A stretch of DNA of 64,000 nt, from positions 170,341 to 234,340 of the forward strand of contig NZ_NFIP01000003.1 in NCBI RefSeq assembly GCF_002161805.1, given 5' to 3'. Position 1 is the stretch's first letter. Each line of letters begins with the position of its first letter. This DNA is from Collinsella sp. An307. Its GTDB lineage: Bacteria > Actinomycetota > Coriobacteriia > Coriobacteriales > Coriobacteriaceae. The notes under the pieces are model-generated. The model saw only the letters and a program-made list of their open reading frames with translations, made no database searches and had not been told where the DNA came from. The position numbers and the translations under genes were made by a program. Of this stretch, positions 17,787-33,902 are shown one piece after another.

Positions 17787-19184
17787 CTATGCGTTTGAGG
17801 AATCGGCTTCGATTTTTGGCTCGTCCTCTTCCGGATACATCTTCTTCCTCCTGATGAAGTAGGCGCCACCCAGATAGGCCGTCATAAGGACCCAGGTCAC
17901 CGGCTCGGTGGCGCAGGTACCAATGTAGCCCCAGACGGGGATGAGGAAGCTTGCGGCGAGGAACTTCATGGCGAGCTCCACGCAGCTGGATATCACGGGT
18001 GCCGCCTTGTAGCCCATGGACTGCATGGCGGTGCGCAGGCACAAAAGAACGCCCAGCACGGCAAAGAATGGCAGGCTGAAGTGGATGGCGAGCGTGCCGC
18101 CCTCGATGATGCCCGCGCTTTGCGTGCCGGTGATGAGGCGGACCATAAACTCGCCCACGGCAAAGCCGAGCGCGCAGGCTATGAGGCCCCAGATAATCTC
18201 GAGCACAAGGGCGATGCGCAGCCCTTGGCGGATACGGTCGTAGCGACGCGCGCCCCAGTTTTGCGAGACAAAGGTCGAGGCGGCGGCCGCAAGCGTGCCC
18301 GAGGGCGTCATGAACGCCTCGATGATCTTGCGGGCGGCGGCGTAGGCGGCGATGAGCGTCTCGCCGAGCGCGTTGTTGGCGCGCTGGAAGATGAGCGTGC
18401 CCACGTTGACCACGCAGAGCATGAGCGCCATGGCAAAGCCCGAGCTCAGAAGCTCCGGCCAGAGCTTCTGCGAGGCGCGCCAGTCGCCGCGTTCGGGCAG
18501 GATCGCCTGGTACTTGCGCAGCAGCGTACCGCCGCAGAGCACCGCCGAGAGCGCCTGGGCAAGGACGGTGCCAAGCGCCGTTCCCACCACGCCAAGGCCG
18601 AGTACGATGATAAAGAAGAGGTCGAGGGCGATGTTCACGAGGCTCGACACCACAAGCACGTAGAGCGGCGTGCGGCTGTTGCCCACCGCGCGCAGAATGC
18701 TCGAGAACATGTTGTAGCCCACCGTGGTGAAGAGCCCCAAGCTCAAGATGAGCATGTAGGCAAAGGACTGCTCAAAGATGCCCTCGGGGATGTTCATGAA
18801 GTGGAGCATCGGCGTGAGGAAGATGACCGAGAGCGTTGTGGCGATCACCACGAGTGCTCCGTTTAGGATGAGCATGCCGGCGATGGAGCGGCGCAGACGC
18901 TTCTCGTTATGCGAGCCAAACGCCTGGGTGACGGGGATGGCAAAGCCGTTGTTCATGCTGATGACAAGGCTCATGAGCAGGTTATAGAGGGCAGACACCG
19001 CGCCCACGGCAGAGATGGCGTCGTCGCCGACGAAGTAACCCATCTCCATGGTGTCGATCATGGTGTACACCTGCTGGAAGAGGTTGCCGATGAGCATGGG
19101 CATGGCAAAGGCGATGAGCAGCTTTAAGGGATCGCCGACGGTCATGTCTTGCATGCGCGCGGATGCTTTCTTGGCGGTCTTCAT
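17787..19184 (-). CDS. MATE family multidrug/sodium antiporter
   Basis: 465 residues with about twelve membrane segments in two repeats. The MATE family entry LLIAFAMPMLIGNLFQQVYTMIDTM (residues 22-46) is typical of the DinF/VmrA-type branch, and the mid-protein repeat GALAAAASTFVSQNWGARRYDRI is its second-half counterpart. These proteins export cationic drugs or metabolites using Na+ or H+. ATG 19184 has only a weak AGGAT upstream; Met14 is a possible alternative. The acidic tail is cytoplasmic. Specificity unknown. Confidence 0.9.
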   Translation of the reverse strand: MKTAKKASARMQDMTVGDPLKLLIAFAMPMLIGNLFQQVYTMIDTMEMGYFVGDDAISAVGAVSALYNLLMSLVISMNNGFAIPVTQAFGSHNEKRLRRSIAGMLILNGALVVIATTLSVIFLTPMLHFMNIPEGIFEQSFAYMLILSLGLFTTVGYNMFSSILRAVGNSRTPLYVLVVSSLVNIALDLFFIIVLGLGVVGTALGTVLAQALSAVLCGGTLLRKYQAILPERGDWRASQKLWPELLSSGFAMALMLCVVNVGTLIFQRANNALGETLIAAYAAARKIIEAFMTPSGTLAAAASTFVSQNWGARRYDRIRQGLRIALVLEIIWGLIACALGFAVGEFMVRLITGTQSAGIIEGGTLAIHFSLPFFAVLGVLLCLRTAMQSMGYKAAPVISSCVELAMKFLAASFLIPVWGYIGTCATEPVTWVLMTAYLGGAYFIRRKKMYPEEDEPKIEADSSNA

Positions 19185-19635
19185 GGGCGAGATCCTATCT
19201 AGCGATGCTCGAGGTGTTTGCCGGCGGGGAGGGTGCCCTCCGAGCCCTCTTGACGCCTCGAGTGGGTGATATGTGAACTGGGATGGACGGCTCGGTGTCT
19301 GCGTTGCACCTGCCCCGCGCATCCGTGTCGCCCCGACTGTTATACCGCAAACACCGCTTCGGTGGGGCGTTAAACGAAAAGCTGGTGCAGCAGCACCGTT
19401 GGCGCAAAAACCCGTCCCATGAGTTTATAAGTGCTTTTTTTTTCAGGTATTTTATAGGTGAGATACTGGAGCCAGGAGAGGAGTTCGTCCGCAGCCAATA
19501 CGTTCCGTTTCGCTTTTGCCTTGCGCTCATGAAACGCTCGTCGCTCACACTCGACATAGGACTTAACCGTATGGCTGCTGCTCAAGATAGCTTTTACCTT
19601 ATGAGTTGTCTCATATCCCCGTCTGCTTCGGTTTT
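19185..19635. other. Gene-poor, AT-richer stretch at the left edge of the accessory region
   Basis: No frame here has a convincing start, ribosome binding site or recognisable protein. A T9 run (after 19433) and a drop in GC mark the change from core to accessory DNA. A short minus-strand frame (19370-19672) rich in Lys/Arg runs into the nuclease gene but has no homology that I recognise. The left boundary of the mobile segment probably lies here. Confidence 0.5.
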
Positions 19636-20574
19636 TTATTCGAGCAGATAGCGCGTTCTCAAAGTTGAGCACGTCGCATCGTCAAGCTCCAGCATCGAGA
19701 TGAGGTCTGAGACCGGGGTATAGACGATAGTAAATGCGAAGCCCGGCGTTTCGAATAGCGGGGCGAGCGTCTCGCTCGCTGCCTCGACGAAGTGCTGAGC
19801 GCCCCGGTGCTCCTCGGCAAGCGCGTCTTCATAATGGTTGCGTGAGAGGGGAGAGAGCTGCCTCAGGGCGCTCTCGCCCATTTCATGCACCACGTTCACC
19901 AGATCAACGCGGCGTTGTGTGGGCCATCTGCCCTCGGCGCACGAGTTGTAGAGCGCAAGCGCGTGCTTGAACATCTGTGCAGCGTCGTAGCGTGCGAGAA
20001 GCGGCAGGCCGTTCTGATCGAAGAGCGTGTCAGCGAGGTTGAGAAACGCATTTGCGGTGCGCTCGTCGCGATACGTCTCTCGTTTGCGGTATGCGCTCTT
20101 AAGTACGCCCGGTTTGCCGAGAAGCCATTCGAGCATCTTCATTTCACAGGCGATGACGTGGTCCTTATTGACGAGCATGGCATCAAGGTTGGCGGGGAGG
20201 CCACTGGCACGCGTGGGGAGTTGCACCTCGTAGGAAACCTCGTAGCTCTCCCGTGAGTTGCTCCAGAGAACGTTTACAGGTCCATTGCCGAGCAGGTTGA
20301 ACGTCATTGCCGAGGAAGATCGCAGGGCGCGCATCTTGTCGTCCAACTCGGATCCGCTGCCACGGCGGTACTCCTCAATGTGGCGGACGTCCATGGAGCG
20401 GATGAGATTGTCCTCAAGTCGCGCCACGTAAAACTGACGTGCCGAGAAGGAAGATCCGATGTCGTGGACCTCAAAGTCATCCCTCTCGCTGGCGGCAAGG
20501 TACCCTGACTTCAGCAGCGAAAGAATCTCATATGAGAAGGTATCCAACGCTTGCCTTTCGTTCTCGCGTGTCAT
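19636..20574 (-). CDS. Putative PD-(D/E)xK nuclease (PGN_0703-like), defence cassette gene 2
   Basis: 312 residues. Residues 85-150 carry a nuclease-like core: SSSAMTFNLLGNG, then YEVSYEVQLP, then NLDAMLVNKDHVIACEMKMLEW with D131 and E144-x-K146 as the catalytic pattern. This order resembles the PGN_0703 family of putative restriction endonucleases; the assignment is from memory of the pattern. The gene lies 24 bases after the DUF262 gene and is read with it. GC is visibly lower than in the core genome. No clear ribosome binding site stands before ATG 20574, so translation may depend on the upstream gene. It probably cuts foreign DNA together with, or regulated by, its partner. Confidence 0.6.
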   Translation of the reverse strand: MTRENERQALDTFSYEILSLLKSGYLAASERDDFEVHDIGSSFSARQFYVARLEDNLIRSMDVRHIEEYRRGSGSELDDKMRALRSSSAMTFNLLGNGPVNVLWSNSRESYEVSYEVQLPTRASGLPANLDAMLVNKDHVIACEMKMLEWLLGKPGVLKSAYRKRETYRDERTANAFLNLADTLFDQNGLPLLARYDAAQMFKHALALYNSCAEGRWPTQRRVDLVNVVHEMGESALRQLSPLSRNHYEDALAEEHRGAQHFVEAASETLAPLFETPGFAFTIVYTPVSDLISMLELDDATCSTLRTRYLLE

Positions 20575-20598
20575 AGGACGGCAGATGCGCTAACGAGC

Positions 20599-23562
20599 CT
20601 AAACGTCCCCAACGTAGCGGATAGGATTCTGGCCGTGGCTCAATTCGCTGGCAAAGCGGCCCTTGTAGCGATTGCGTATTTCATCGCTAGCGATCTTGCC
20701 CACAAACAAGTAGCGGCCGTCTTCCGGTAGAAGACCGTCGCCCTGCTCTTTGGCCTCCTCGGCGTTGAGCCATTTATCTACGCGATAAACCTCAACAACG
20801 CGCCCGTTGCAAACGCCTAGCGCAAGATGGATGGCGCTAACTCGGTTAGGGGAAACCTTCCAGCAGCATCGTATGCGGTCGTAAAGCTCGGATTCGGACA
20901 TACTAGAGGGGTCGACACCAGTTATCTTGATCAGGACAGCCGGCTCGTCAAAATCAGTCTCGCAAAGCTGCTGCTCATGGTTAGACACTGCTGAATCGTC
21001 TTTCTGGTATGTACCGGTATCACCGTTGGTGCCTGCGCCCCCTGAATTATCGTTCGATGTGGTGCGAAGCATGTCGGCTACGACGTGCAGCCTCAGCATA
21101 GCGGCGACAAGCCACTCGTAGAGCGCATCCCAATGCTCCGAAGCGAGGTCGGCTTTAAGTTCGATTAGCAGTTCTCGTGAGGCGCTGCTCGGCGACCGCC
21201 ACTCGACGGTGCCGTCGATGCCGTGAAGCTTTGCCTCAACTTCATTTCGGCGTGCTTGAAGGCTCTTGTAAAGCGTGATGCTGGTAAACCAAATGCCTGC
21301 GCCGACCCATCCGTCTCTTGGGGCAAAATACGCTGTCGCATGGGCGTCGCGCATGCCCAGTCCAAATGTGGCGTACCACTCGTTGTTCTCAACCCTATTG
21401 GAGGGATCGCTATACGCGATGACAAAATCCTGCCGCTCTGCACAATAGTCGTAGAAACCGCTCCAGAATGCCGCTTTGAGGCTGGGGCCCTCAACATGCT
21501 TAAGATACTCGGAGCGCTTGTCAGAGAGCAGCGGACCGTCTTCTCCTATGTGCCAGTACTTCCATCCGTTGATTGAAACCTGCGCGCCTGTCACAAGCTC
21601 CTTTGCGTGTGTTGCCGCACGGGAGGGGCTTGTGAAGACCTCTCCGTTGGCAAGACGGATACCGTAGTCTTCGGAGATTTCGGCTTCAAGGAGTGTTCCC
21701 GTCTCATGGGCAAAGAGCTTGGTTCCTGGAGCGATGTGCGTCATGGCGCAAACCGTCCGGAACGTCACAGCTCGCATGGCAGCTTGGGGCTTCTTCTTAC
21801 TAGGTTTGTAACGTGCGAGGACGGTAGAATCGAGCTTGGGGCACGGCCAGACCTCGAGCGCGCGCTTCGCCAACTGCTCGGCGCGGTTGCGAATGGTCGC
21901 CTCATTCCAAACGTTGGTGTGATGTAGTGCTTGGGAAAGCATCAGATAGTCTTTATTAAAGCCGCCTTTGAGGTGCGCCTTCTTTACCTCAAACGGAGCA
22001 TCGGAGAGTTCAGGGTTGTAGGCTGTGAGTGTGAGGTTGCCGAGCGTGTTGATGAGCTCGTCATAGACGCGCTCGCAGTCATCGCCGAGCATTGTGCGCC
22101 ACGCAGGGCTGTTGAGCGCATTTTGCGGCATGATGTGTTCGATGGAAAAGTTGCCACCAGAGAAATCCAGCGGGTCCTTCGTGTGGTAACTGTTTTCCAA
22201 GGTGGTGAGAAGATAGAACCTTCGCTTGAATGCGTAGCAGTCGCGTGTTTTGAGCGCTCGCTCAAATTCGGCATCATCCGGCATCCTTCGTGCGGTGCCT
22301 TCTTCGCCCAGAAGAATTGCCTCAAATGCCTCACGGATGTTGCCGCCGTCATCGCGCACGGTTGCAAGACGGGCGATAACAGAAGAGAAGAACTTGTTCA
22401 GACTATTGGTCGCCGCATCGCACACGGTACGCCGGAAGAGATAGCTCTCCGTTGTTCTCAATATGGAGATAAAATCGTCACGCGAGAGAGCCTTGTCATG
22501 GTAGGCCTCGAAAAGTGACATGAGCAAGGGGTTGACTACCGAGACGTCGAGCACCTGGATCCGCACAAACAGGGTGCGGAGTGCCTTGTCCTCACAGGCG
22601 CCGGCGGTGATGCACGCGTAGTGTCCGGCGTAGCGACGGATGTCCTTGAGCAGGATAGCCATCTGGCCCGGCTTGTCGTAGCCGTTATCCGCAACGTGGC
22701 GTTTGAATAGGCGGTACACATCACGTGTGGCGATAGTGGACGGGGCATTGATGACCGTCAGCCAGTTGCGGAGGAACTCATCGAAGACCTCGTCGTAGCT
22801 GTCAGCGCCAAGCGTTTCTTCAATCTTGCGCCAATAGTTGGCATAGAGCTTTTCCTGTTCGTCCATGGGAAGGCCCATGAGTACGAAATTGCGCACCAGG
22901 TCCGCGGTGGAAAGGTCCTTGCCGGTGGAGTTCATCGACTCAAAAATGAGCTGAGGGTTGTCCTGCCCCTGCTTGAGCCCAATCGCCACAATCTCAAGTC
23001 GCTGGATGCCATCCCAGATCACGTTGGGATCATCGATTTTGCTCAGCCAGGTGCGGAAGAGCTCAAGGTTGTTGATGATGCGATGGGATCCTTCAAGTAT
23101 TTCGACATTAGGGTCCTCAAGATGGTCGAGAACCGACCGCAGGGTCTGTTCATCGCCTTGCGAGAGGGAGAGCCGGTAATGGTCGTCGCCCTTCTTGTAC
23201 TTCAGGATGAGATAACCGCTATCAATAATCTCGTCGTACGAGACATGCGTGAGCCTCTCGGGGCGTGTTTTGGCATATTCTGCCAAGGCCACGATGAGCA
23301 GACTGAGTGTGGTGATGCGCTGCTGGCCGTCAATGACGAGGAGCTTATTTACCCCGGATATGCTGAATTCATCACCCAGCACCATAACTACGGAGCCGGT
23401 GAAATGCGTGCCGGTTTGACGACGGCCGATGGCGACGATGTCGTCCCAGAGCTGCCGGCACTGCTCCTCGTCCCAGGAGTAAGGACGCTGGTAGACAGGA
23501 ATGACCATTCGCTGGTTAGCAGAGGTGAGCAAGCTGACGATTGATTGCGGCGCAGCATTCAT
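20599..23562 (-). CDS. DUF262 / DUF1524 HNH nuclease with RAMA-like and DUF4268 domains (GmrSD-like), defence cassette gene 1
   Basis: 987 residues. The N-terminal DUF262 has IPVYQRPYSW (21-30) and the NTP-handling DGQQR (78-82). A DUF1524 HNH nuclease has IEHIMPQ (474-480) and NTLGNLTL (505-512). Residues about 610-672 (GTKLFAHETGTLLEAEI to NGWKYW) look like a RAMA domain, and about 695-832 like DUF4268. A linker (833-872) leads to a C-terminal domain (873-987) ending in RYLFVGKIA and RYKGRF. DUF262 plus DUF1524 is the make-up of GmrSD-type IV restriction enzymes, which destroy glucosylated or otherwise modified phage DNA. ATG 23562 has GGAG upstream. GC is about half over sampled stretches, against two thirds in the core. 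Confidence 0.85.
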   Translation of the reverse strand: MNAAPQSIVSLLTSANQRMVIPVYQRPYSWDEEQCRQLWDDIVAIGRRQTGTHFTGSVVMVLGDEFSISGVNKLLVIDGQQRITTLSLLIVALAEYAKTRPERLTHVSYDEIIDSGYLILKYKKGDDHYRLSLSQGDEQTLRSVLDHLEDPNVEILEGSHRIINNLELFRTWLSKIDDPNVIWDGIQRLEIVAIGLKQGQDNPQLIFESMNSTGKDLSTADLVRNFVLMGLPMDEQEKLYANYWRKIEETLGADSYDEVFDEFLRNWLTVINAPSTIATRDVYRLFKRHVADNGYDKPGQMAILLKDIRRYAGHYACITAGACEDKALRTLFVRIQVLDVSVVNPLLMSLFEAYHDKALSRDDFISILRTTESYLFRRTVCDAATNSLNKFFSSVIARLATVRDDGGNIREAFEAILLGEEGTARRMPDDAEFERALKTRDCYAFKRRFYLLTTLENSYHTKDPLDFSGGNFSIEHIMPQNALNSPAWRTMLGDDCERVYDELINTLGNLTLTAYNPELSDAPFEVKKAHLKGGFNKDYLMLSQALHHTNVWNEATIRNRAEQLAKRALEVWPCPKLDSTVLARYKPSKKKPQAAMRAVTFRTVCAMTHIAPGTKLFAHETGTLLEAEISEDYGIRLANGEVFTSPSRAATHAKELVTGAQVSINGWKYWHIGEDGPLLSDKRSEYLKHVEGPSLKAAFWSGFYDYCAERQDFVIAYSDPSNRVENNEWYATFGLGMRDAHATAYFAPRDGWVGAGIWFTSITLYKSLQARRNEVEAKLHGIDGTVEWRSPSSASRELLIELKADLASEHWDALYEWLVAAMLRLHVVADMLRTTSNDNSGGAGTNGDTGTYQKDDSAVSNHEQQLCETDFDEPAVLIKITGVDPSSMSESELYDRIRCCWKVSPNRVSAIHLALGVCNGRVVEVYRVDKWLNAEEAKEQGDGLLPEDGRYLFVGKIASDEIRNRYKGRFASELSHGQNPIRYVGDV

Positions 23563-23683
23563 GGCGGACTCCGAACGACAAAGTGAGGAATGAAATCATT
23601 CTACTCGATGGCGCGGACTTTTCTTTTAGCTGTAGGCTAGGCGCTGACGCCATCCGGCTTCCATCGCGACTATTCGGTAGATT

Positions 23684-23935
23684 GCGACGGTCGCGGTCGT
23701 AGTTGAACGCCTTGGTCTCGAACTCGTAGGTGATCGACCCCGTCTTGTAGCCCACGTTGCGCGTGCAGTCGCCGAGGCCCGTCACCTCGATCTTGGGGAC
23801 CATGATCTCCTTGGCGTTGCGCCCCGCGCGCGCCATGCGGCGGGGGCTGTTCAGGCACGTCGAGCACGCGGCCCTCTTGTAGACCTCGTCCAGGACGGCC
23901 GTGTAGTTCTTGGTGTACGCGATGCTGTTTGCCAT
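23684..23935 (-). pseudogene. Truncated phage major capsid protein, N-terminus only
   Basis: About 84 codons remain: MANSIAYTKNYTAVLDEVYKRAA, CLNSPRRMARAGRNAKEIMVPK, then GYKTGSITYEFETKAFNYDRDR. This is the N-terminal arm of a siphophage capsid family in which about 300 residues are expected. After DRDR (near base 23684) the frame runs into unrelated, lower-GC sequence that leads to the defence gene promoter. The junction therefore marks where the cassette replaced the rest of the head and tail genes. It follows the scaffold gene by three bases in normal phage order. Confidence 0.72.
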
Positions 23936-23938
23936 CTG

Positions 23939-24475
23939 CTACTCCTCGCTCTCGGGAAGGCCGGCGATCTTGCGCCAGCGGCTCATCTGCGTGGACGCGT
24001 CGGCCCCGGCGGCGCCCGCGCTCGGGAGGCCCGTCGCGCCGGTCGGCGCCGGGGCAGCGGGTGCCGAGAAGAGCCAGGGCTCCGCGGCCTTGAGCTTCTC
24101 GACGTCGTTGTCGTGGTCGGGCAGGAGCGCGCGGGCGGCCTTGACGTTGCGCGCGCCCGCGAGCTGCAGCTCGAAGCCGACGCGCTCCTCGTCGCCCTTT
24201 CGGCGCAGCTCGTCCATCTTCTTGCGCAGGGCCTCCGCGCCCTCGGCGGTCTTGGCCACCTCCGCGATCTCGCCCTCGAGCTCCGCGATGCGCGCGTCGC
24301 GCTCCGCGAGCGCTGCCTCGTAGTCCTCGCGCGCCTGGGCGGCCGCGTCGCCGTCCGCGCCGATTGCGCCCTGGAGCCCCGCCGTCACCGCCGCCTGCGC
24401 CGCCTGGTCGACCTGCGCCTGCGGCTCACCCGCGACCTGCGCCTGCGCGGCCGCGCCATCGTTCCCGTCACCCAT
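23939..24475 (-). CDS. Phage scaffolding protein (DUF4355-like)
   Basis: 178 residues, acidic and Ala/Gln-rich at the start, then a long coiled coil (about 50-112: ALAERDARIAELEGEIAEV, KKMDELRRKGDEERVGFEL). It continues into ARNVKAARALLPDHDNDVEKLKAAEPWLF and a short basic end SRWRKIAGLP. This is the layout of siphophage scaffold proteins that guide capsid assembly, and its place just before a capsid gene agrees. ATG 24475 follows a hairpin whose 3' arm contains the likely ribosome binding site. Without a full capsid gene it cannot serve assembly. Confidence 0.75.
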   Translation of the reverse strand: MGDGNDGAAAQAQVAGEPQAQVDQAAQAAVTAGLQGAIGADGDAAAQAREDYEAALAERDARIAELEGEIAEVAKTAEGAEALRKKMDELRRKGDEERVGFELQLAGARNVKAARALLPDHDNDVEKLKAAEPWLFSAPAAPAPTGATGLPSAGAAGADASTQMSRWRKIAGLPESEE

Positions 24476-24478
24476 AGA

Positions 24479-24508
24479 AAAGCCCGCCTTTCTCTCCGGG
24501 CGGGCAGA
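24479..24508 (-). terminator. Hairpin with T-run just before the scaffold start
   Basis: Read on the minus strand, GCCCGCC pairs with GGCGGGC and is followed by TTTTCT and then the scaffold ATG. It may end transcription from upstream phage genes or hide the scaffold ribosome binding site; either would tune head-protein ratios. It marks retained phage sequence at the edge of the inserted regulator-adhesin cargo. Confidence 0.6.
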
Positions 24509-24580
24509 GAAACAGCCCGCACCCATCAGATGGGCACAGGCTACGGCGGCGTCACAAAGCCGCCACCGCGCACCGAAGTG

Positions 24581-24594
24581 TTCGCGTACGCGAA
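24581..24594. promoter_or_regulatory. Perfect 14-base palindrome in the regulator promoter
   Basis: TTCGCGTACGCGAA is self-complementary and lies 11 bases before a TAAGAT -10-like box (24606-24611) and about 50 bases before the regulator start. It would overlap the -35 region, as expected for an autoregulatory operator of the HTH protein encoded next. Confidence 0.5.
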
Positions 24595-24644
24595 TCCGTT
24601 TCGGGTAAGATGGGAGGAGGGGAAACCGAGGGGACGGAGGGGCC

Positions 24645-25859
24645 ATGGGCTGGATGACGGCGGCGGAGGCCGCGAGGGAGTGGGGCGTCACGCCCCGGCG
24701 CGTGCAGATCCTCTGCGCGGAGGGGCGCGTCACGGGCGCCGAGCGCTTCGGCCGCGCCTGGCGCATCCCCGAGGGCGCGCCCAAGCCGGCCGACCCGCGC
24801 CGCGCGGGCGCGCCGGCCACGCCAACGTCCGCGGCGGGCGCCGAAGACGCCGCCCGCGCGCCCCTGTCCCTCGGCGCCCTCATGCCGCTCATGGCGACGC
24901 CGTTCGCCCCGGGGCGGGCGGAGGAGGCTGCCGCGTCCCTCCCCGAGGGGGCGCCGCGCGACATCGCCCGGGCCGAGCTCGCCTACTTCGCCGGCCGCGC
25001 CGAGGACGCCGCGGCGGCCGCAGAGCCCTACCTCGGCCACGGTGACCCGGGCGCCCGCCTGTCCGCCTGCCTGATCTGCGCCTACGCCAACCTGTCGCTC
25101 GGCCGCATCGACGCCGCGCGGCGGTCGCTCGAGGCGGCGCGCGGCGCCCTCTCCGGCGCGCCCGCCGACCCGCGCCTCGCCGCCGCCGGGGTCTTCGTCG
25201 CGCACGCGGCGAGCGTGCTGCTGCACCTGCCCGCGCCGGAGGCCGCGCAACCGGCATCCGACCCGCTTCCCCTCCTGCCGCCCGGCCTCAGGCTCTTCGC
25301 CTGCTACGTGCGCGCGCACCGCCTCTACCTCGAGGGCTCCTACGAGCTGGCGTACGGGATGACGATCGGCGCCCTCGCCATGGCGGACGAGACCTACCCC
25401 ATACCGGCGATCTACCTGCACCTCGCCTCCGTCATGAGCCTCATGGCGCTCCGCCGCACCGACGAGGCGCGCCAGCACGTGCTCGCGGCGTGGGAGCTCG
25501 CCCGCCCGGACGGCCTCATCGAGCCCTTCGGCGAGCACCACGGGCTCCTCGGCGGCATGCTCGAGGCGGCAATCAAGCCCGCCTGGCCGGAGGACTTCCG
25601 CCGCATCATCGACATAACCTACCGCTTCTCCGCCGGATGGCGGCGCGTCCACAACCCCGCCACGGGCGACGACGTCGCCGACAACCTCACCACCACGGAG
25701 TTCGCGGCGTGCATGCTCGCGGCCCGCGACTGGACCAACGCCCAGATCGCGGAGCACCTGGGCGTCTCCGTGAACACGGTGAAGAGCTGCCTCTCCGCGT
25801 CCATGCGAAAGCTCGGCGTCTCGAGCAGGAGGGACCTCGCTCGCTTCATGCTCGCATGA
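24645..25859 (+). CDS. LuxR-type transcriptional regulator with N-terminal excisionase/MerR-like HTH
   Basis: 404 residues. The N-terminus (MTAAEAAREWGVTPRRVQILCAEGRV, then AWRIPEGAPKP) is an excisionase-like helix-turn-helix. The middle (about 75-330) is helical and TPR-like. The C-terminus is a LuxR HTH (TNAQIAEHLGVSVNTVKSCLSASMRKLGVSSRRDLARFML). Two DNA-binding ends in one regulator are unusual; similar architectures occur in Coriobacteriia. No sensor domain is recognisable, so the signal is unknown. GGAGGGG precedes ATG 24645. It is read against the phage genes and toward the adhesin 182 bases downstream, which it probably controls. Confidence 0.85.
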   Translation: MGWMTAAEAAREWGVTPRRVQILCAEGRVTGAERFGRAWRIPEGAPKPADPRRAGAPATPTSAAGAEDAARAPLSLGALMPLMATPFAPGRAEEAAASLPEGAPRDIARAELAYFAGRAEDAAAAAEPYLGHGDPGARLSACLICAYANLSLGRIDAARRSLEAARGALSGAPADPRLAAAGVFVAHAASVLLHLPAPEAAQPASDPLPLLPPGLRLFACYVRAHRLYLEGSYELAYGMTIGALAMADETYPIPAIYLHLASVMSLMALRRTDEARQHVLAAWELARPDGLIEPFGEHHGLLGGMLEAAIKPAWPEDFRRIIDITYRFSAGWRRVHNPATGDDVADNLTTTEFAACMLAARDWTNAQIAEHLGVSVNTVKSCLSASMRKLGVSSRRDLARFMLA

Positions 25860-25916
25860 GCCCACCACCCGTTTCTGCCCCTCGGCTGGGTGATGCGCTC
25901 CCGGCCGCGTGTTGGG

Positions 25917-25935
25917 ATAATGAAATCGCGATTAT
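25917..25935. promoter_or_regulatory. AT-rich dyad upstream of the adhesin gene
   Basis: ATAAT (25917-25921) mirrors ATTAT (25931-25935) around the palindrome AATCGCGATT. It is an AT island in DNA of more than 70% GC, about 105 bases before the adhesin start. It is a candidate operator or promoter for control by the neighbouring LuxR-type protein. Confidence 0.4.
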
Positions 25936-26041
25936 TCCGGCGTCGCTTCCGGTGGGCACGGCGTCCGCCGTGGCGCGGATGGCGGCACGCGGGCCCGCCG
26001 CCGGCGATGCGGCCCGATGCGCCGAGAGGGGAGCACGCGAT

Positions 26042-28186
26042 ATGACACCGAACGTCAGACGAAACGAGCAACTGGAAGTGGGCGGCGCACGGAGTCGGAA
26101 TCGGCTTGTCGCCGCGGCGCTGTCCCTGAGTCTGCTGCTCACGGCGCTCGTGGTCGCCGCCCTCGCGCTCCCCGCCACGGCGCTGGCGGCGGGAGAGCAC
26201 GACAGTCACAGCAACGGCTGGACGGAGTTGACGGCGGACACCACCACCCTATCCGGCGGCAGCTACTACCTGTTCGGCGATGTAGAGTACACCGGCACTG
26301 AGTCCATCACCGTCAGCGGTGAGGTGATCCTCTGCCTCAACGGCCAGAAGCTGGATCTGAAGGGGCAGCACATTTCCGTGGGCAGCGGCGCAAGTCTTAC
26401 CCTGTTCGACTGCTCCACCGGCGGTGTTCTCACCGGCGGTTCTGGCAGCAAAGGCGGCGGGGTGTATGTGGGCGGCGGCGGCACCTTTACAATGACCGGC
26501 GGCAGCATTGCCGGCAACACCGCCGAAAGCGGCGGCGGGGTGTATGTGGACGAAGGCGGCACCTTCACTATGGAAGACGGCAGCATCAACAACAACCAGG
26601 TCACCTCAGGTGGAGGTGGAGGGGTGATGGTTAACAAAGGCTCATTCACTCTATCCGGCGGCTCCATCACCGGCAACGCCACTAGCGACGCAACTTACGG
26701 TTACGGCGGCGGGGTGTGTCTATACGGCACCTTTTATCTGTCCGGTGATTCCATCATTCAAAACAATACGAAGGCTGGTGCCACCGACAACCTGTATTTA
26801 GGATGGAATACTATCAAAATCACCGGATCTCTGGGCGAAAACGCGCGCATTGGCGTGACCGCAGAAGGTGTCCCCCGCAGTTTCATCAGTGGGTGGAGCG
26901 ACTATATGGCGGGCGAAAACCCGGCGGACTACTTCTCCTCCGACGGTGACGCCTGGGACATTGGTCTGAACGCCGACGGGGATGTGGTGCTGGGCAGCCT
27001 GTGTACCATCATCACCCAGCCCGCAGATAAATCTGTGATCGAGGGCAAAACCGCCACCTTTACCGTGAACGCCACCGGCAGCGAGCCGTTGTCCTATCAG
27101 TGGCAGCAAAGCATCGATAACGGAAATAACTGGACAAATATTGCCAGCGCAAACGCAGCCGAATATACCACAGGGGAAACCACAATGGACATGAGCGGCA
27201 ACCAGTACCGTTGTGTTGTGACCGGAGACGGCGGCGCTGTCATAAGCGACCCCGCGACCCTCACAGTCGCGCACGCCCACAAACCTGCCAGCGATTGGTC
27301 GAGCGACGCGGACGGACACTGGCACGAGTGCGCGGCCTGCGGCGACAGGCTTGACTACGCCGGGCATATGCGCACCGTCCAGAACGAAAAGAAGGCCACC
27401 TGCACCGATGAGGGCTACACCGGCGACACGGTCTGCTCCGTCTGCGGCTACGTGATCGCAAAGGGCGAGACGATCCCCGCTGCCGGCCACGCATGGGGCG
27501 CCTGGGCCGCGACCGAGCCCGCCACGTGCACCGAGGACGGCCTCGAGGCACGCACCTGCGCCGCGTGCGGGAGGACGCAGACCCGGACCGTGCCTGCGTC
27601 CGGCCACAGCTTCACGAGCTACGCGTCCAACCATGACGCCACCTGCACCGAGGACGGCACCGAGACCGCGACCTGCGACAACGGCTGCGGCGCCACCCAC
27701 ACGCGCCCCGACGAGGGCTCGGCGCTCGGCCACGCCTGGGGCGAGCCCGCGTGGCGCTGGTCCGACGACGGCGAGGAGTTCGTCGCCTCGTTCGCCTGTG
27801 CTCGCGACGCCTCCCACACGCTCGAGCTGACGGCCAAGCCCACCGCGACGGTCGCCTCCGAGCCCATCTGCACCGAGCCCGGCACCACGCGCTACTACGC
27901 CGAGGTCGAGCTCGACGGCGTCACTTACGCCGCAGAGGCCACCGCGGCCGACATCCCCGCGCTCGACCACAGGTTCGAGGACGGCGTCTGCACCGTCTGC
28001 GGCGCTAAGGACGAGGGCTACGTCGCGCCCCAGCGGCCCGACCCGAGGCCGGAGCCGGAGCCGGTCGAGACCGACCCCGAGCTTCCCGCCACGGGCGACG
28101 CGACCGCCGCCGGCCTCCTCGGGGCGCTCGCATGCGCGGGTGCCGCCCTGGCGACCGGCGCTGCGCTGCGCAGGCGGAGCCGCTAG
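26042..28186 (+). CDS. LPxTG cell-wall-anchored surface protein with beta-helix and Ig-like domains
   Basis: 714 residues. A signal peptide (about 20-50, ending ATALAA) is followed by a right-handed beta-helix built of repeats such as GGGVYV and TFTMTGGSIAGNTA (about 80-230). Next is an Ig-like domain (about 325-405, PADKSVIEGKTATFTV to DPATLTV). Cysteine-paired modules follow (CAAC, CSVC, CAAC, CTVC, about 425-665). The end is a sorting signal: LPATG, hydrophobic span, RRRSR tail. Sortase would link it to peptidoglycan, so adhesion to host glycans or mucin is likely. The start ATG follows GAGGGGAG. The middle part is far lower in GC than both ends. Confidence 0.85.
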   Translation: MTPNVRRNEQLEVGGARSRNRLVAAALSLSLLLTALVVAALALPATALAAGEHDSHSNGWTELTADTTTLSGGSYYLFGDVEYTGTESITVSGEVILCLNGQKLDLKGQHISVGSGASLTLFDCSTGGVLTGGSGSKGGGVYVGGGGTFTMTGGSIAGNTAESGGGVYVDEGGTFTMEDGSINNNQVTSGGGGGVMVNKGSFTLSGGSITGNATSDATYGYGGGVCLYGTFYLSGDSIIQNNTKAGATDNLYLGWNTIKITGSLGENARIGVTAEGVPRSFISGWSDYMAGENPADYFSSDGDAWDIGLNADGDVVLGSLCTIITQPADKSVIEGKTATFTVNATGSEPLSYQWQQSIDNGNNWTNIASANAAEYTTGETTMDMSGNQYRCVVTGDGGAVISDPATLTVAHAHKPASDWSSDADGHWHECAACGDRLDYAGHMRTVQNEKKATCTDEGYTGDTVCSVCGYVIAKGETIPAAGHAWGAWAATEPATCTEDGLEARTCAACGRTQTRTVPASGHSFTSYASNHDATCTEDGTETATCDNGCGATHTRPDEGSALGHAWGEPAWRWSDDGEEFVASFACARDASHTLELTAKPTATVASEPICTEPGTTRYYAEVELDGVTYAAEATAADIPALDHRFEDGVCTVCGAKDEGYVAPQRPDPRPEPEPVETDPELPATGDATAAGLLGALACAGAALATGAALRRRSR

Positions 28187-28211
28187 GCGGCGAGAGGGAA
28201 CCGACCGCGCG

Positions 28212-28243
28212 AGGGGCGCCCCGGCATCGAGCCGGGCGCCCCT
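28212..28243 (+). terminator. GC-rich hairpin after the adhesin gene
   Basis: AGGGGCG and CCCGGC on the left pair with GCCGGG and CGCCCCT on the right around ATCGA with one bulged base. No T-run follows, as is common for terminator hairpins in GC-rich actinobacteria. Confidence 0.55.
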
Positions 28244-28995
28244 CCCCATGCTGGGCGTCCGCCCGCGCGGGGCCACGCTCAAGCCCGCGGCACACGACGA
28301 AGGGGCCACACCCCGCCCGCCGCTCCGGCTGTGTATTGCGCCGCGGCTCGGGTCAGCCGGCTCCGCCTGCGTGTCGCTCCCGGCTCAGGTCAGCCGGCTG
28401 CGCCGTCTGCCCTTCGCGGCGGTCGCACACTCCGGCTACGCCGTCTGCCCCTCGCGGCGCTGCGCATACACAGCCTACGCTCTGGGCGGGGCCTGACGGG
28501 AGTCGGCCTTTGCGCAGGGCGGGTCGGTCCCTCGCTGCGGCGCGCACTCCGCTACGGCAGCTGGGCTGCTGCTCCGTCGTGCCCGTCCACGGGCGGTGGC
28601 GGGGTGTGGCGTCCGCTCGCGACCCCCACGGCGGGCGCCCAAGAGCGCCTCGGGGCTCCAGGGGCGACGCGTGCGCCCGCGTAGCCGACACGCGCCCGGC
28701 GCCGCCCGCAGCCCTCACGAGGGAGCTCGCCGCCCGGACGGGCACCGCCGCCACCGGCCGCTGCCAACCAGGGGCTGAGCGCGCCGTGACCGCCGCCGCT
28801 GCGTCGCGCGCACGGGGCGTACGCGCCGCCGTCGTGCGCGCGGGAGCCAGCCTCACGGCCGCGCCCCGCTCCGGTCGCGTCTTCGCCGCCGGCTCGGGCC
28901 AGCCCGCTGCGCGGTCTGCCCTCGCCAGGGGGCTCAGCCGCTTCCCTCCGCTCCCGCGCGGCCTGCAGCGGGTCTCACGGGCGCGCACGCCGTCG
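28244..28995. other. 750 bases without a convincing gene; degenerate 37-38-base tandem repeats
   Basis: Very GC-rich, with open frames on both strands of random composition and no recognisable protein. At 28345-28367 and 28382-28404 the same 23-base segment recurs (21 of 23 identical, period 37). The following block GGCTRCGCCGTCTGCCC repeats at 28396 and 28434 (period 38), and a looser copy of GGCTCGGGYCAGCC is at 28891. In an intact phage a minor head gene would be read here leftward after the portal gene; it is absent or decayed. Confidence 0.6.
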
Positions 28996-30531
28996 TCACG
29001 CCCGCCCGGCGGCGCGCGCCTCCGCGCCGTCGGCCCCGGCGCTGCCAGATCCGGCTCGCCCGCACCCGGCGTTGCCGGTGCCCGACCGGGCGGCGCCCCT
29101 GCGGGCAGCTGCCTCGTCCTCGCCGTACCACTTGGCGCGGTACTCCCACGGCTCCAGGAGCCCCGCGGCCACCTCGTCCATGTCCTGGCGCTTCTCCGCC
29201 GTCGTGTCCGTGATGATGCTGTCGTCGAACGTCACGCGCACGAGCCCCTCGTCGGGCAGCTCAACCCCGAGCCTTCGCTCCGCCGCGAGCAGCGCGCGGC
29301 AGATGCCGACGATCGCGCCCTCGAGCGCGTGCTCGTGGCGGCGTATGTTCCTCATGAGCGCCGAGTTGTCCGCCGACACCTCTGTGGCAGTCTTCACGTA
29401 CCCGACGTTCTCCAGGTCGAAGTAGTTGATGCCGAAGCCGCAGAGGTCGCCGAGCGTCTGCAGCGCGACCCTGAACGCCCGAGCCTGCGCCTCGGTGCGC
29501 AGCGTCGGCGCGAACTCGTGGATCGTGTCCTCCGTACTCATGACCTTGCGGAACACGGTGCAGTCAGCCTTGCCGAACGGGATGGAGACGCGCCCGCCCT
29601 TGCCGTCGCGCTCCGTATCGAACATCACGTCCGAGAGGAACACGCGCATCTTCCCGTTGTCGATCTCTGACATCATGGCGTCATAGCAGAGGTCGACCGC
29701 CTGGATGGCGTCCACCGCATCCGCAAACACCGACTGCCCGTAGGGGCTCATGTCCACCCGCGTGTTGTCGACGGCGGGCTTCACAATCGAGAAGGTCGGC
29801 CACACCGACCCCGTGTCGTACACCGGGCACACGCCCTCCGGCTCGACCCTGTTGCCGTCCCGGTCGAAGCACGCCGTGACGATCCTATACGTGCCCTTGC
29901 TTGCATCGTCAGTTAGGCGAGAAGAACCCGCCGCCGCAGCCCCTCCAAGAGATTCGCCAGGCGAGAAGAACGCCCCGCCCGTACCCTTCAGATGAAGCTG
30001 CACCTGGTCGACCGCGCGCCCGCGCCAGAACGCCCGCGTCACGAACGCGCACTCGGTCACGCCCTCCTCGTCCCACGTGAGCGGCACGACCATCCGCGCG
30101 TCGTAGCGCCTCACGCGAACCTCTCGTGACCCCGCATCGACCCACAAGGCCCACGCGCCCGTCCCCAGGCCGAACGCCCTCACCACGCACTCCTGCGCCG
30201 AGGCGAGGAAGCCGGTGCGAGCCATCCACGCCGCGAGCCAGTCCGTGCACGCCTGCTCGGAGCACGCCACCTGCGTCCGGTCGTTCAGCAGCAGCGACCC
30301 CCACTCCCGGCACACCCGCATGGCGGGATGAATGGACCGACGGTGCACCTCGTACACCCGCCCCACGCCGTCCGTGTCCCTATAGTCGTAGAAGTCCCCG
30401 AGCGCCCGCATCCACCGGTCCCACGCCCGGATGTGCGGCTCCATGTCCTCCAGCGGCAGCGTAAACCCCAAGGATCGCAGCCACTCCCTCACATGCTCCG
30501 GCACCCAGTAATCGCGATCCAGACCCTCCAC
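28996..30531 (-). CDS. Phage portal protein (SPP1 Gp6-like)
   Basis: 511 residues. The layout fits SPP1-type portals: an N-terminal clip-entry region, RSIHPAMRVCREWGSLLLND, a basin of beta strands and the conserved middle FADAVDAIQAVDLCYDAMMSEIDNGKMRVFLSDVMF. Then come the long helix after FGINYFDLENVGYVKTATEVSADNSALMRNIRRHEHAL and the IITDTTAEKRQDMDEVAAGLLEPWEYR end, with an Ala/Gly-rich tail. The portal ring is the DNA gate of the phage head. The start is taken as GTG 30531 because GGGAGG lies six bases before it; the frame extends to a TTG at 30558. The terminase expected upstream is missing. Confidence 0.85.
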   Translation of the reverse strand: MEGLDRDYWVPEHVREWLRSLGFTLPLEDMEPHIRAWDRWMRALGDFYDYRDTDGVGRVYEVHRRSIHPAMRVCREWGSLLLNDRTQVACSEQACTDWLAAWMARTGFLASAQECVVRAFGLGTGAWALWVDAGSREVRVRRYDARMVVPLTWDEEGVTECAFVTRAFWRGRAVDQVQLHLKGTGGAFFSPGESLGGAAAAGSSRLTDDASKGTYRIVTACFDRDGNRVEPEGVCPVYDTGSVWPTFSIVKPAVDNTRVDMSPYGQSVFADAVDAIQAVDLCYDAMMSEIDNGKMRVFLSDVMFDTERDGKGGRVSIPFGKADCTVFRKVMSTEDTIHEFAPTLRTEAQARAFRVALQTLGDLCGFGINYFDLENVGYVKTATEVSADNSALMRNIRRHEHALEGAIVGICRALLAAERRLGVELPDEGLVRVTFDDSIITDTTAEKRQDMDEVAAGLLEPWEYRAKWYGEDEAAARRGAARSGTGNAGCGRAGSGSAGADGAEARAAGRA

Positions 30532-31308
30532 GGCGCACCTCCCGAACGGTTCCGTCAATCGCCGCTCAGGTTAAGCGCCCGTCGCAAACTGCCGCTGCCC
30601 ATGCCGCTCATCCCATACGCGCCACAGGCATCCATGCACGCGCGCGATGGCACCGTTATGCTGCTATCCCTGTTTCTGCTATATGAGCTGTCGAAGGTGT
30701 TCCTGCTTATGCGGTCTGCATAAGCAGGCGGCTCGCGCCAAGGTCGCTCGCTCCTCCGCGCAGCCCGAAGGTCTGCGCTCCGCATCGCGCCGCCAAAGTC
30801 GGCGCTCTTGTTCCGCAAGCCAGCGCACTCCGCCGCACACGGGCGCTACCCACAGGAAAGCCCACGGCGCGGCTCCATGCGCCGTCTTGCTCCAAGCTCC
30901 GGCAGCCCGCAAGCGGTCTGCCTCCGCAGCTACGGGTGCCAGCGTTCCGCTGTCACCCTCCGCACCGCTCCGTGCCCGCTTCGCGGTCACTGCGCGGGCT
31001 CCGCAAGCCCCTACGGGTCTTGCTCCGCAGGGGGTGAGAAGAACGAGAAGAACGAGAAGAACGTCCATCCATGCACGCCAGCCAGCGATTATGCACATTC
31101 GTCCGAGAAGATGTTGATAACCTCCCAGCGCTTCGCGCGAAGCGTCGCCGCGTGTTCCAAAGCGTTTCATGCCGAGAAGAACGCCCGGAAGCCATGATGT
31201 GGAAAACCCCGCATGCGCGCCCCGTATAATGAGCGCACGGGACGGCGCGCTGCCCTCTACCACTGGAGGTTTCCGGCGTCGTCCCGCGTTCCACCGATAG
31301 GGGGCGCC
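30532..31308. other. 777 bases without a convincing gene; GC-rich inverted and tandem motifs
   Basis: No frame carries a credible protein on either strand. A perfect three-fold tandem of GAGAAGAAC stands at 31036-31062, with a single copy at 31174-31182. Between 30740 and 31030 the motif CTCCGC recurs in alternating orientations (GCTCCGCAAGCCCC, CTACGGGTCTTGCTCCGC). In a complete prophage the terminase large subunit would be encoded here on the minus strand. It may be decayed DNA or hold a structured RNA. Confidence 0.5.
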
Positions 31309-31719
31309 ATGAAACACGAATGCCGCATCACCGTCCTAGAGACCAAATGCTTCGCCGAGTACCAGGAGAGGTACCTCGCCGACCCGCACTCCGGCCCCTG
31401 CTCGTTCTTCAAGCCGGGCGACACGTTCCTGCTCAGGCGCACGCCCCAGCAAGACGACTTCTACCACCTCATGAACGGCAAGTTCTGCGGCGAGGCGTGG
31501 GACGCGGTCAGCCGCTACGTCTACACGGCGCTCCAGGGCGGATCCATCATGAAGCGCTGGACCAACGACGACCGCGTGATGATCGCCTGCTGCAATGACG
31601 GCGCCCGCCCCGTCATCTTCAAGATCGAGCGCATCGACGTCCCCGAGACCGACGAGGAGCGGGAGTGGCTCGAGCGGCAGGGCTTCACGAACACCGCCGA
31701 AGACGCCTACACCGGGTAG
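31309..31719 (+). CDS. TIGR04076 family protein
   Basis: 136 residues matching the TIGR04076 pattern: opening CRITVLETKC, then GPCSFFKPGDTFLL, FCGEAWDAVSRYVYTALQGGSIMKRW, and the signature IACCNDGARPVIFKIERID. The family is small, soluble and of unknown function, common in anaerobes. Paired cysteines in IACCNDG may bind a metal. ATG 31309 has GATAGGGGG upstream. It is read opposite to the phage portal gene and its 3' end overlaps a possible terminase fragment, so it may be cargo. Confidence 0.8.
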   Translation: MKHECRITVLETKCFAEYQERYLADPHSGPCSFFKPGDTFLLRRTPQQDDFYHLMNGKFCGEAWDAVSRYVYTALQGGSIMKRWTNDDRVMIACCNDGARPVIFKIERIDVPETDEEREWLERQGFTNTAEDAYTG

Positions 31720-31850
31720 CGCTCCGCCCGCTCCGGGTCGATGCAGATCTCACTCAGACCCGCCAGCCGCTCGTGCAGCCACCGCTGCACCTTGCTCTTC
31801 CTCGCAGGTTGCGCCTGGGATCTCGCTTCACCCCGCCACGACAACCCAGC
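31707..31850 (-). pseudogene. Possible C-terminal fragment of a phage terminase large subunit
   Basis: The minus-strand frame here reads SKVQRWLHERLAGLSEICIDPERA and then a stop. The IDPERA ending of a helix-strand unit resembles the C-terminal nuclease part of PBSX-type terminases (motif of the form I-x-I-D-P-E-R). It lies upstream of the portal gene in phage order. No longer homologous frame extends it, so it would be a relic. Low confidence. Confidence 0.25.
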
Positions 31851-32574
31851 AATGATTTCTCGTCTGCGCCGCCGAGCGGATCGTGGTGGGCAGCGTCCGC
31901 TTGAACGCCGCATCCTCTACCATCTTTTGCATTAGTTCCGGACGCCTCGCTATGAGTGTCGCGCTCGTGGGGCCGATAGAGCCTCTCGGGATGGAACGTC
32001 CGAGCGCGTGATAAAAGGAAGGAGAGGGCCCAGGCACCGGTGCACTGAAATCCCGGTAGGAATCCCTCTCCTCGCGCGAGGCGGTACCCCCGTCGTTTTC
32101 GTTGGGGCGTGCCTCGCGATTTGCGGGCACACGCGCCGACTTTTCCTCATCGGAACGCTGCCCGTCCGGGCGTGGGCCCCGGCTCCTCACCCAGGTACTG
32201 CCCCATAAAACCATTCTAATCCCTTCGTTTTGTCGCCGCTTGAAGACCTCTCTTTCCTGTGTCGGCGGTTGCTCTCAACTGTTGAGAGCTGCGGCGAGAA
32301 CGGTCGAGCTGTCATGCACGACTACCGCGATGACGTCTTTGTGTGCCAACGCTCCTGCATCGATTCCGAGCTCGAACACCGCAGAAACGACCCTTACGTT
32401 GGTTTCTTCGTTCACATCTGGTTTGCGCGGTACCGCTGCCTTTGCCGTCGAGGATTATTCTGATCAGAATTATTCTGTTTGGAATAATCCTAGCTGGACG
32501 TCGCGAGGCTCGCTGGCGAATTTGTCCGCGGTGGGTCGGGTACCATGGACGTAGGTAAATCGGAAGGGGCGCCC
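31851..32574. other. Gene-poor right edge of the accessory region, with two operator-like dyads
   Basis: GC is lower than in the flanking core. A minus-strand frame (31828-32214) encodes a 128-residue, charged, low-complexity product that I do not recognise. A perfect odd palindrome GCTCTCAAC-T-GTTGAGAGC is at 32271-32289. A three-part AT-rich dyad lies at 32452-32490: GGATTATTC, GAATTATTC and GAATAATCC separated by TGATCA and TGTTTG. Between them a short minus-strand frame is open (next entry). Confidence 0.5.
32275..32415 (-). CDS. Possible 46-residue small protein (GTG start)
   Basis: From GTG 32415 the minus strand reads VNEETNVRVVSAVFELGIDAG and then ALAHKDVIAVVVHDSSTVLAAALNS before TGA. 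The pattern of hydrophobic strand, helix and strand with GC3-rich codons looks more like protein than chance. No ribosome binding site is clear, and it could be the end of a decayed gene. The AT-rich dyad 32452-32490 lies just upstream and a palindrome overlaps its stop. Unrecognised. Confidence 0.25.
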   Translation of the reverse strand: MNEETNVRVVSAVFELGIDAGALAHKDVIAVVVHDSSTVLAAALNS

Positions 32575-33282
32575 ATGACCGCTGACAACACCGTTGAGTT
32601 TTTGGACCTGTACAACCGGCTCGAGCGGCTCATCCGCGAGCGGTACAACCTCTCGCGCGACGGAGGCGCCATCGCGTGGCTGCTCAGTCGCGACAAGGCA
32701 CCCCGGGCGCTTCGCGACGAGCTCGACTACTGCCGTGAGGTGCGGAACTTCCTCCAGCATAACGAGCGTATCGACGGATCCTACGCCGTCATCCCCAGCG
32801 ACGCCATGCTCGACGCGCTCCGCTCTACGCTCGAGCGCTTTGAGGACATGGGCGCGGCGGAGGACGTCTGCACCCGGCGCGAGAAGATCCGCGTCGCCAC
32901 TATGGACGAGCCCCTGCGCCCGGTACTGCGCGACATGGCCGAGCACGGCTACGCGCACGTGCCCATCTTGGCCGACGGGCGCGTGGTGGGCGTGTTGAGC
33001 GAGAGCACCGTGCTTTCGTATCTGGTGGACGATATGGCGCTCGAGATTCCCGAGACGGCGACGCTCAAACAGCTCGAGCGGCTGCTCTCCCTTGACGCGC
33101 ACGAGCCGGGGCGCTTTGCCTTTGTGGCGCGCCGCGAGCCCGCCGACGAGGTGGCGGAGCTTTTCCAGGCGTCGCTCAGGCAGGCAAACCGCCTTGTCAT
33201 GGTATTTGTGACCGAACACGGCAGGCCCGACGAGCGGCTTCTCGGCATCATTACCGCTTGGGACCTCGCCAAATTCTTCTAA
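32575..33282 (+). CDS. CBS-domain protein with N-terminal helical domain
   Basis: 235 residues. The first 85 are helical (FLDLYNRLERLIRERYNLSRDGG, then YCREVRNFLQH), as in uncharacterised proteins fused to CBS pairs. Residues about 100-235 form two CBS motifs (HVPILADGRVVGVLSESTVLSYL; LLGIITAWDLAKF), which usually bind adenine nucleotides. It probably senses energy charge or a nucleotide. ATG 32575 is preferred over ATG 32545 because GGAAGGGG precedes it. First core-like gene right of the accessory region. Confidence 0.82.
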   Translation: MTADNTVEFLDLYNRLERLIRERYNLSRDGGAIAWLLSRDKAPRALRDELDYCREVRNFLQHNERIDGSYAVIPSDAMLDALRSTLERFEDMGAAEDVCTRREKIRVATMDEPLRPVLRDMAEHGYAHVPILADGRVVGVLSESTVLSYLVDDMALEIPETATLKQLERLLSLDAHEPGRFAFVARREPADEVAELFQASLRQANRLVMVFVTEHGRPDERLLGIITAWDLAKFF

Positions 33283-33291
33283 GCGGAGGCG

Positions 33292-33714
33292 TTAGATAAC
33301 GATGCCTGAGCAGTGGTCTATCTCGTGCTGGATAATTTCTGCGGTGTAGCCGCTGAAGCGCTCGGTGCGCTCGCGCCAGCTCTCGTCCTGATACCGCACG
33401 GTGATGCGGCGGTAGCGCGTGGTGGGGCGGGTGCCCGCGAGCGAGAGGCAACCCTCCTCGGTCTCAAACGGCTCCGCCTGCGCGATGAGCTCGGGGTTGT
33501 ACATGAGGCGGGCGGGGGAGGTTGCAGTGCCGCTCTCGGCAAACACGATGATGCGTTTGAGGATGCCGATCATGTTCGCGGCCATGCCAACGCACTCCGC
33601 CCGGTGTGCGGCAAAGGTGTCCAGAAGGTCTTGCGCGTGCGGCTCGTCGCCGGGTGCGGCGTCCACTGAGGGACGCGCGAGGATGATGCGCGAGGTCATG
33701 ATGGGGCGGATCAT
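33292..33714 (-). CDS. Peptide deformylase-like protein with altered motif 1
   Basis: 140 residues. Motif 2 EGCLSL (residues 87-92) and motif 3 QHEIDHCSG (129-137) hold the metal-binding cysteine and histidines with the catalytic glutamate. Motif 1, usually G-x-G-x-A-A-x-Q, is VGMAANMIG (42-50), with methionine in place of the glutamine that stabilises the intermediate. Deformylases remove the N-formyl group from new proteins. Small variants like this one may be a second deformylase or have another amidase role. ATG 33714 follows AAGGAG. Convergent with the CBS gene (9 bases apart). Confidence 0.82.
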   Translation of the reverse strand: MIRPIMTSRIILARPSVDAAPGDEPHAQDLLDTFAAHRAECVGMAANMIGILKRIIVFAESGTATSPARLMYNPELIAQAEPFETEEGCLSLAGTRPTTRYRRITVRYQDESWRERTERFSGYTAEIIQHEIDHCSGIVI

Positions 33715-33902
33715 GCTTGGCTCCTTACGGTTGGCCGCCCGCAAGCGTTGCACCTGCGGACGCCGGGTTTTGGTTGGCGTGGCGTCTGCTGAGGGACGCC
33801 GTCCAATGCGGACGGATGCCCGGGCTCGTTTCTATAATGATGCCATTACGGGCGGCGCGGCAGCGCGCGCTCGGAAGGTCCATTGCGGTACGGGAGGTCG
33901 AT

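Follow-up and report, generated by a model that had tools for sequence, protein, structure and literature searches.

The interval between positions 19381 and 32452 of the window (the whole 64,000-nucleotide stretch of DNA that was analysed) is, with a probability of roughly 70%, a chromosomal defence hotspot holding a mosaic, in which a leftover prophage scaffold gene and the start of a capsid gene lie beside exchanged defence cargo. On this reading, a hotspot between a MATE efflux gene and a pair formed by a 245-aa gene and a peptide-deformylase-like gene would have been filled from two sources. The first would be a prophage family of the Coriobacteriia, represented by its 5' head module (portal, cargo slot, scaffold and 81 capsid codons), and the second a GmrSD-type gene with a solo restriction-endonuclease-like gene, which would replace everything 3' of capsid codon 81. 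Deletions or exchanges would drop the capsid, tail and lysis genes while sparing the cargo side, and further defence genes would join at the break. A preliminary description of this DNA had proposed that phage genes were replaced by anti-phage genes, and that a defence hotspot was thereby built from a prophage; this replacement reading is partly supported. All that should follow capsid codon 81 is indeed lost and a restriction gene stands in its place, but the data do not bear out a local, single event that created the hotspot. The features of the interval and its flanks are as follows.

17787-19322, minus strand: MATE efflux gene that forms the left chromosomal flank (Pfam MatE, E 2.5e-41).
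19381-32452, no strand: the hotspot or variable interval, with conserved flanks on either side (limits of flank homology in relatives).
19636-20574, minus strand: P0004, a solo restriction-endonuclease-like gene of the REase-ARP family, 312 aa (PF22558, E 2.9e-8).
20599-23562, minus strand: P0003, a putative GmrSD-type modification-dependent restriction gene, 987 aa, with RAMA and DUF4268 domains (Pfam).
23618-23691, no strand: spacer of 74 bp that matches neither the capsid nor the GmrSD leader (DNA comparison).
23692-23935, minus strand: first 81 codons of a prophage major capsid gene (PHROG 422; DNA match to intact relatives).
23939-24475, minus strand: head scaffold gene, its start at 24475 read by eye (PHROG 31118, E 5.4e-44; weak match to Phage_scaffold, E 3e-6).
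24645-25859, plus strand: HTH_17/LuxR regulator, cargo between portal and scaffold (GerE and HTH_17 matches).
26039-28186, plus strand: surface protein with an Ig-like domain and an LPATG sorting motif, cargo, start approximate (translation by eye; weak Ig_3/I-set matches).
28996-30558, minus strand: prophage portal gene (PHROG 533, E 3.1e-81).
32545-33282, plus strand: 245-aa gene, right chromosomal flank (97-98% identical in G001, G002, G005 and G007).
33292-33753, minus strand: peptide-deformylase-like gene (named by eye), right flank (flank comparison with relatives).

The portal, the scaffold and the first 81 capsid codons stand in phage order and in the same orientation, on the minus strand, and the portal is 93% identical to that of one intact relative. 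The first 84 residues of the open reading frame at 23935-23516 (minus strand) match positions 1-82 of the 297-position profile PHROG 422, major head protein (E 7.9e-20). The fragment, with its start at 23935, is therefore real, as the preliminary description had held; its end was placed near 23684, after about 84 codons, and alignment with intact relatives, as had been suggested there, fixes the junction base at 23692, that is, after 81 codons. Similarity to related GmrSD genes sets in with their leader at 23617, which leaves 74 bp in between that match neither side in the compared loci; no second copy of this spacer is present in the window's own genome, where searching returned only 20-bp chance matches. 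GC content falls across the junction from 0.68-0.77 to about 0.56, again as first described, and no convincing repeat joins the region at 19.2-19.6 kb with that at 23.6-23.7 kb. Elsewhere in the same genome (G000:C3) there is a complete 338-aa capsid, 78% identical to the fragment and preceded by the same scaffold gene. At the window site itself there is no complete temperate phage, but only portal, scaffold and 81 capsid codons: a search found no match to terminase, Dit or Tal in the interval, and no integrase was recognised among its gene calls. Near the right edge lies a small recurrent cargo gene (31213-31719, 168 aa), a relative of which precedes the scaffold in G311.

The limits of the interval are set by the chromosome. 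In all four relatives that possess both flanks (G001, G002, G005 and G007, of the same genus), right-hand homology starts exactly at 32453, while left-hand homology ends at 19380 in G002 and G005, at 19557 in G007 and at 18260, within the MATE gene, in G001; the DNA of the left flank is conserved at 90-94% in G002, G005 and G007. Between these flanks the contents differ in all four genomes and are mostly of defence type, as is characteristic of a chromosomal hotspot. The interval of G002 holds MzaB-like and Avs2-like genes and a scaffold in decay, to which the first few codons of the capsid are attached. In G005 a type III RM system and an AbiD-like gene are accompanied by 75 bp from the 5' region of the scaffold. 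G007 has a Ppl-like gene and a cytosine methyltransferase, together with a P0004 relic (aa 127-177, at the same flank), and G001 a PDC-M49A gene with a distant GmrSD. A further genome, G006, lacks both the MATE gene and the interval. Two of the four relatives thus retain scraps of the scaffold region only and the other two show no phage structural DNA in a DNA comparison of the interval. A prophage origin of the hotspot, as first proposed, is therefore not required.

The phage pieces derive from a family whose intact members can be compared directly. In ten elements each covered by 40 kb of sequence, the gene order, partial or full, is integrase, terminase, portal, cargo, scaffold, capsid, small connectors, Dit, Tal, fibre, holin and amidase, where no single gene family was called in all ten and holin and amidase were assigned by eye. 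Among the named public loci whose capsid is intact, the distance from capsid start to Dit start is 2.08-2.36 kb wherever Dit was detected and no insertion had displaced it. With two reference proteins as queries, no tape measure was matched in any of 81 layouts. Members of this family of the Coriobacteriia (L046-L049, L050-L129, L197-L216) thus keep capsid and Dit at a nearly constant distance and have no recognisable gene for a tail tube or tape measure, although terminase, Dit, Tal, fibre and lysis genes are present. In four of the ten elements (G058, G129, G137 and G235), a GMP-synthase-like gene is situated 8.8-11 kb beyond the capsid on its 3' side, which suggests a common integration site, one that is not the site of the window's remnant. 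Capsids of the family also occur in Bifidobacterium pullorum (L116) and in a contig filed under Bacteroidales (L115), the latter perhaps a binning error.

Where the portal is seen, between 2.4 and over 9 kb separate its end from the scaffold on the 5' side of the latter, and this slot between conserved phage genes carries variable defence cargo in intact elements, as expected of a prophage-borne hotspot. Among the 82 proteins scanned of the 202 cargo open reading frames listed from intact elements, PADLOC matches comprised type III restriction enzymes (up to five members per model), IetA (three), IetS (two), Ppl (three) and several type II methyltransferases (two each), and Pfam matches comprised ResIII (eight), AAA_21 (five), McrBC, GmrSD_N and Abi_C (two each). 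A glycosidase, an epimerase and a transposase were found in the same set, so the slot holds much defence, though other genes too. The window's own portal-scaffold cargo is the regulator and the surface protein, with no defence gene. Phages of this family already bear defence genes between portal and scaffold, which argues against replacement as the origin of the hotspot. An intact phage in which a naturally short capsid gene is followed by a DUF262 pair would have offered another explanation of the junction; no such case was found, since all 32 viral contigs carry a near full-length capsid and none has a GmrSD behind it.

The association of capsid remnant and GmrSD is not confined to the window. 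A GmrSD gene or fragment adjoins a capsid remnant, or lies within 7.3 kb of one, at 11 loci, ten of them in other genomes. A full or 3'-shortened GmrSD follows directly behind the capsid start in the window, G084, G338, G034 and G387, and in G076 it follows just as directly behind what is left of the capsid, a relic of roughly twelve codons, while whole GmrSD genes or fragments lie 2.4-7.3 kb behind the capsid start in G235, G141, G311, G250 and G260. Close GmrSD relatives also stand in islands without a capsid (G111 and G294). The surroundings of the G084 fragment (L105 1-20243) form a dense defence island, with IetA, GmrSD, DUF1016-like and Abi_2-like genes and, named by eye, cytosine methyltransferase-like and McrC-like genes.

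In three of these genomes (G338, G034 and G084) the capsid/GmrSD junction is identical to the base, at about capsid codon 86, and their GmrSD genes are 91.5-92.1% identical in DNA. The capsid start of G338, however, is only 81% identical to those of G034 and G084 and 97% identical to that of the intact phage L055, and it falls in another supported clade than theirs in the capsid-start tree. The same junction with unequal capsid alleles implies that the capsid-start block was exchanged while the GmrSD beside it stayed in place; a twofold origin of the junction is less likely. Since alleles were swapped next to a shared junction, the block may act as a recombination anchor. We tentatively suggest, as a possibility that we would not favour over its denial, that the scaffold and capsid-start block of about 0.8 kb serves as a homology anchor by which defence cargo may move between the prophage family and chromosomal islands, where incoming phages would recombine such that the allele is replaced and the neighbouring defence gene stays.

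The history of the window itself is not fixed by these three loci, as its break (codon 81) and spacer differ from theirs. In a recent local event, as first proposed, a complete prophage would have resided here and, in this lineage only, a GmrSD cassette would have taken the place of its capsid-to-lysis genes. The capsid start, which has an open frame and shares 96% of its DNA with L050, a copy from an intact prophage, would agree with this, as would the junction base and spacer, which are unique to the window among the compared loci. Yet neither a terminase nor an integrase of the family was recognised in the interval, the scaffold scraps and the P0004 relic at the same flank in relatives indicate that the pieces are old at this site, and the DNA of the window's GmrSD shows 72-80% identity with the nine others in the comparison. 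Together with the recurrence of capsid/GmrSD junctions in other genomes, this renders a single local replacement unlikely, and we retain the reading of a chromosomal hotspot filled by a mosaic.

The direction of loss is asymmetric across the class. A profile of the capsid N-terminus (positions 1-131) matches 82 of 396 Coriobacteriia genomes, and one of capsid residues 132-338 matches 57 of the same 396. A hand tally in these genomes gave 30 N-terminal-only fragments ending by profile position 114 against two without the N-terminal part (G288 and G018), or four if G323 and G335 are added; the tally leaves out G004:C11 (split by an insertion sequence), G024:C6 (at a contig end) and pieces lacking both ends, and counts G387, G260 and G290 as N-terminal although each lies in two frames. 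Loss of the 3' side is therefore the rule. The cargo just 5' of the scaffold is probably what is kept, perhaps under selection, and as deletions spare that side, scaffold and capsid start would be left as residue. Of the 17 truncated loci with identified next genes (among 32 laid out), 13 have a gene of defence type no farther than 3.1 kb from the break on its 3' side, a proportion that has no genome-wide control rate beside it and for which genes were partly picked by eye. In a tree of 231 nt from 22 truncated and 50 intact copies, 18 label changes were counted (mean of shuffled labels, 19.2), at least eight of them forced by supported branches; with truncated copies so scattered among intact ones, truncation or block exchange must have occurred repeatedly.

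Site-specific insertion of a mobile element or recombinase at about capsid codon 81-86 would also produce recurrent junctions, and the junction base common to G338, G034 and G084 is in keeping with it. So is an insertion sequence, bounded by terminal inverted repeats of 13 bp and a target duplication of 7 bp, that splits the capsid of G004 at codon 81-82, where the window's copy also breaks (G004:C11 and G004:C18; L041 end and L194 end). The breaks, however, are spread from codon about 7 (G002) to codon 211, and those inspected show neither a shared end motif nor a recombinase gene, which makes this explanation very improbable; a single break site was rejected on the same spread. Nor is the capsid the unique breaking place: the scaffold profile matches 99 of the 396 genomes, and further remnants break inside the scaffold. 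Three other capsid fragments (G132, G251 and G276; L043, L184 and L186) are broken near codon 56-62, with a different GmrSD/DUF262 gene behind the break in G132 and G276 and an ADP-ribosylglycohydrolase-like gene, named by eye, in all three.

Could the fragment have been retained for a purpose of its own? The scaffold with the capsid N-arm/E-loop fragment might be kept as an anti-phage protein that poisons the assembly of incoming capsids; open frames do persist in many copies, and over 81 codons those of G338 and G311 are identical in amino acids and nearly so to intact ones. Against this, frameshifts or early stops occur within the retained part in G387, G260, G290 and G220, and constraint is relaxed: pooled pN/pS of the N-terminus is 0.27 in 21 truncated copies versus 0.146 in 47 intact ones, the former value being inflated by several truncated copies that have no close intact relative. 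These sets represent 21 of 32 truncated copies, the others being interrupted in frame, broken early or lacking their start, and the 47 distinct sequences among 48 intact copies. The window's capsid start differs from its nearest intact relative by six synonymous and two nonsynonymous changes, and its Y57C falls in a column that is invariant in 16 aligned full-length capsids. A poisoning role is thus barely credible, while the sequences fit passive remnants, many of them recent. The window's fragment shows no sign of a long-kept function and presumably does nothing by itself.

The restriction gene at the break, P0003, is assignable by its domains: Pfam reports GmrSD_N (DUF262; E 1.7e-35), GmrSD_C (E 2.5e-24), RAMA (E 2e-16) and DUF4268 (E 5e-7), the first two at 123 and 86 bits where the curated cut-offs are 33.2 and 23, and the PADLOC models Orf5 (E 5e-149) and HEC-06 also match. 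Like known GmrSD type IV restriction enzymes it bears GmrSD_N and GmrSD_C on one chain, and it differs from them by the added RAMA and DUF4268 domains. Judged from its sequence, it probably cuts modified phage DNA. Relatives at E 1e-80 are present in 76 of the 396 Coriobacteriia genomes, and none was seen in viral contigs in a search by six short peptide patterns only. P0003 and P0004 had been taken for a DUF262 pair, but a conserved two-gene system was rejected, as their relatives do not stay together: those of P0004 occur in four other of 197 genomes, none with a GmrSD beside it in the short loci examined, and P0004 is absent from the loci laid out around GmrSD relatives.

Rousset et al. put forward the view that defence systems on mobile elements may be the source from which defence islands of bacteria grow. 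The strains compared here can be arranged as a series of intermediate states, from intact phages with cargo, through phages cut 3' of the cargo and islands with only a capsid start, to islands with scaffold scraps. The capsid start can serve as a search anchor when defence genes are sought in this little-studied class of gut bacteria, and if the block is truly a recombination anchor, the exchange route becomes testable. A literature search, in which subscription journals were thinly covered, returned no paper on the window element or on capsid fragments at defence junctions. So far as that search shows, three things are new: where the slot lies, the repeated occurrence of capsid-start remnants at the edge of defence islands, and the exchange of alleles at a common junction. 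Prophage defence hotspots and chromosomal defence hotspots are already known as kinds.

Prophage defence hotspots were described in 2022 as a small, high-turnover locus between two conserved phage genes, with diverse anti-phage systems (PMC9122126); the likeness to the present family lies in this variable defence locus between conserved phage genes. That hotspot is situated next to cos, between gpA and portal, whereas the slot here lies between portal and scaffold, extends over 2.4 to over 9 kb and belongs to Coriobacteriia, and there is here a second place for cargo, 3' of the broken capsid gene. In E. coli, elements that carry defence genes integrate at chromosomal hotspots (Hochhauser et al. 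2023, PMC10121019), which share with our interval the fixed core-gene flanks and variable defence content, prophages being the commonest carriers. Unlike the E. coli hotspots, the interval here holds part of a prophage only, with no recognised integrase. Among characterised phages, Eggerthella phage PMBT5 and Ruminococcus phage RG-TP1 have a related capsid after the scaffold and accessory genes between minor head protein and scaffold; they differ in having full tails with a tape measure and no large defence cargo in their records. Tape-measure genes were reported in six of ten clades of Eggerthella lenta prophages (PMC8778435), so elements without a recognised tape measure, such as those of the family described here, are not unheard of in Coriobacteriia.
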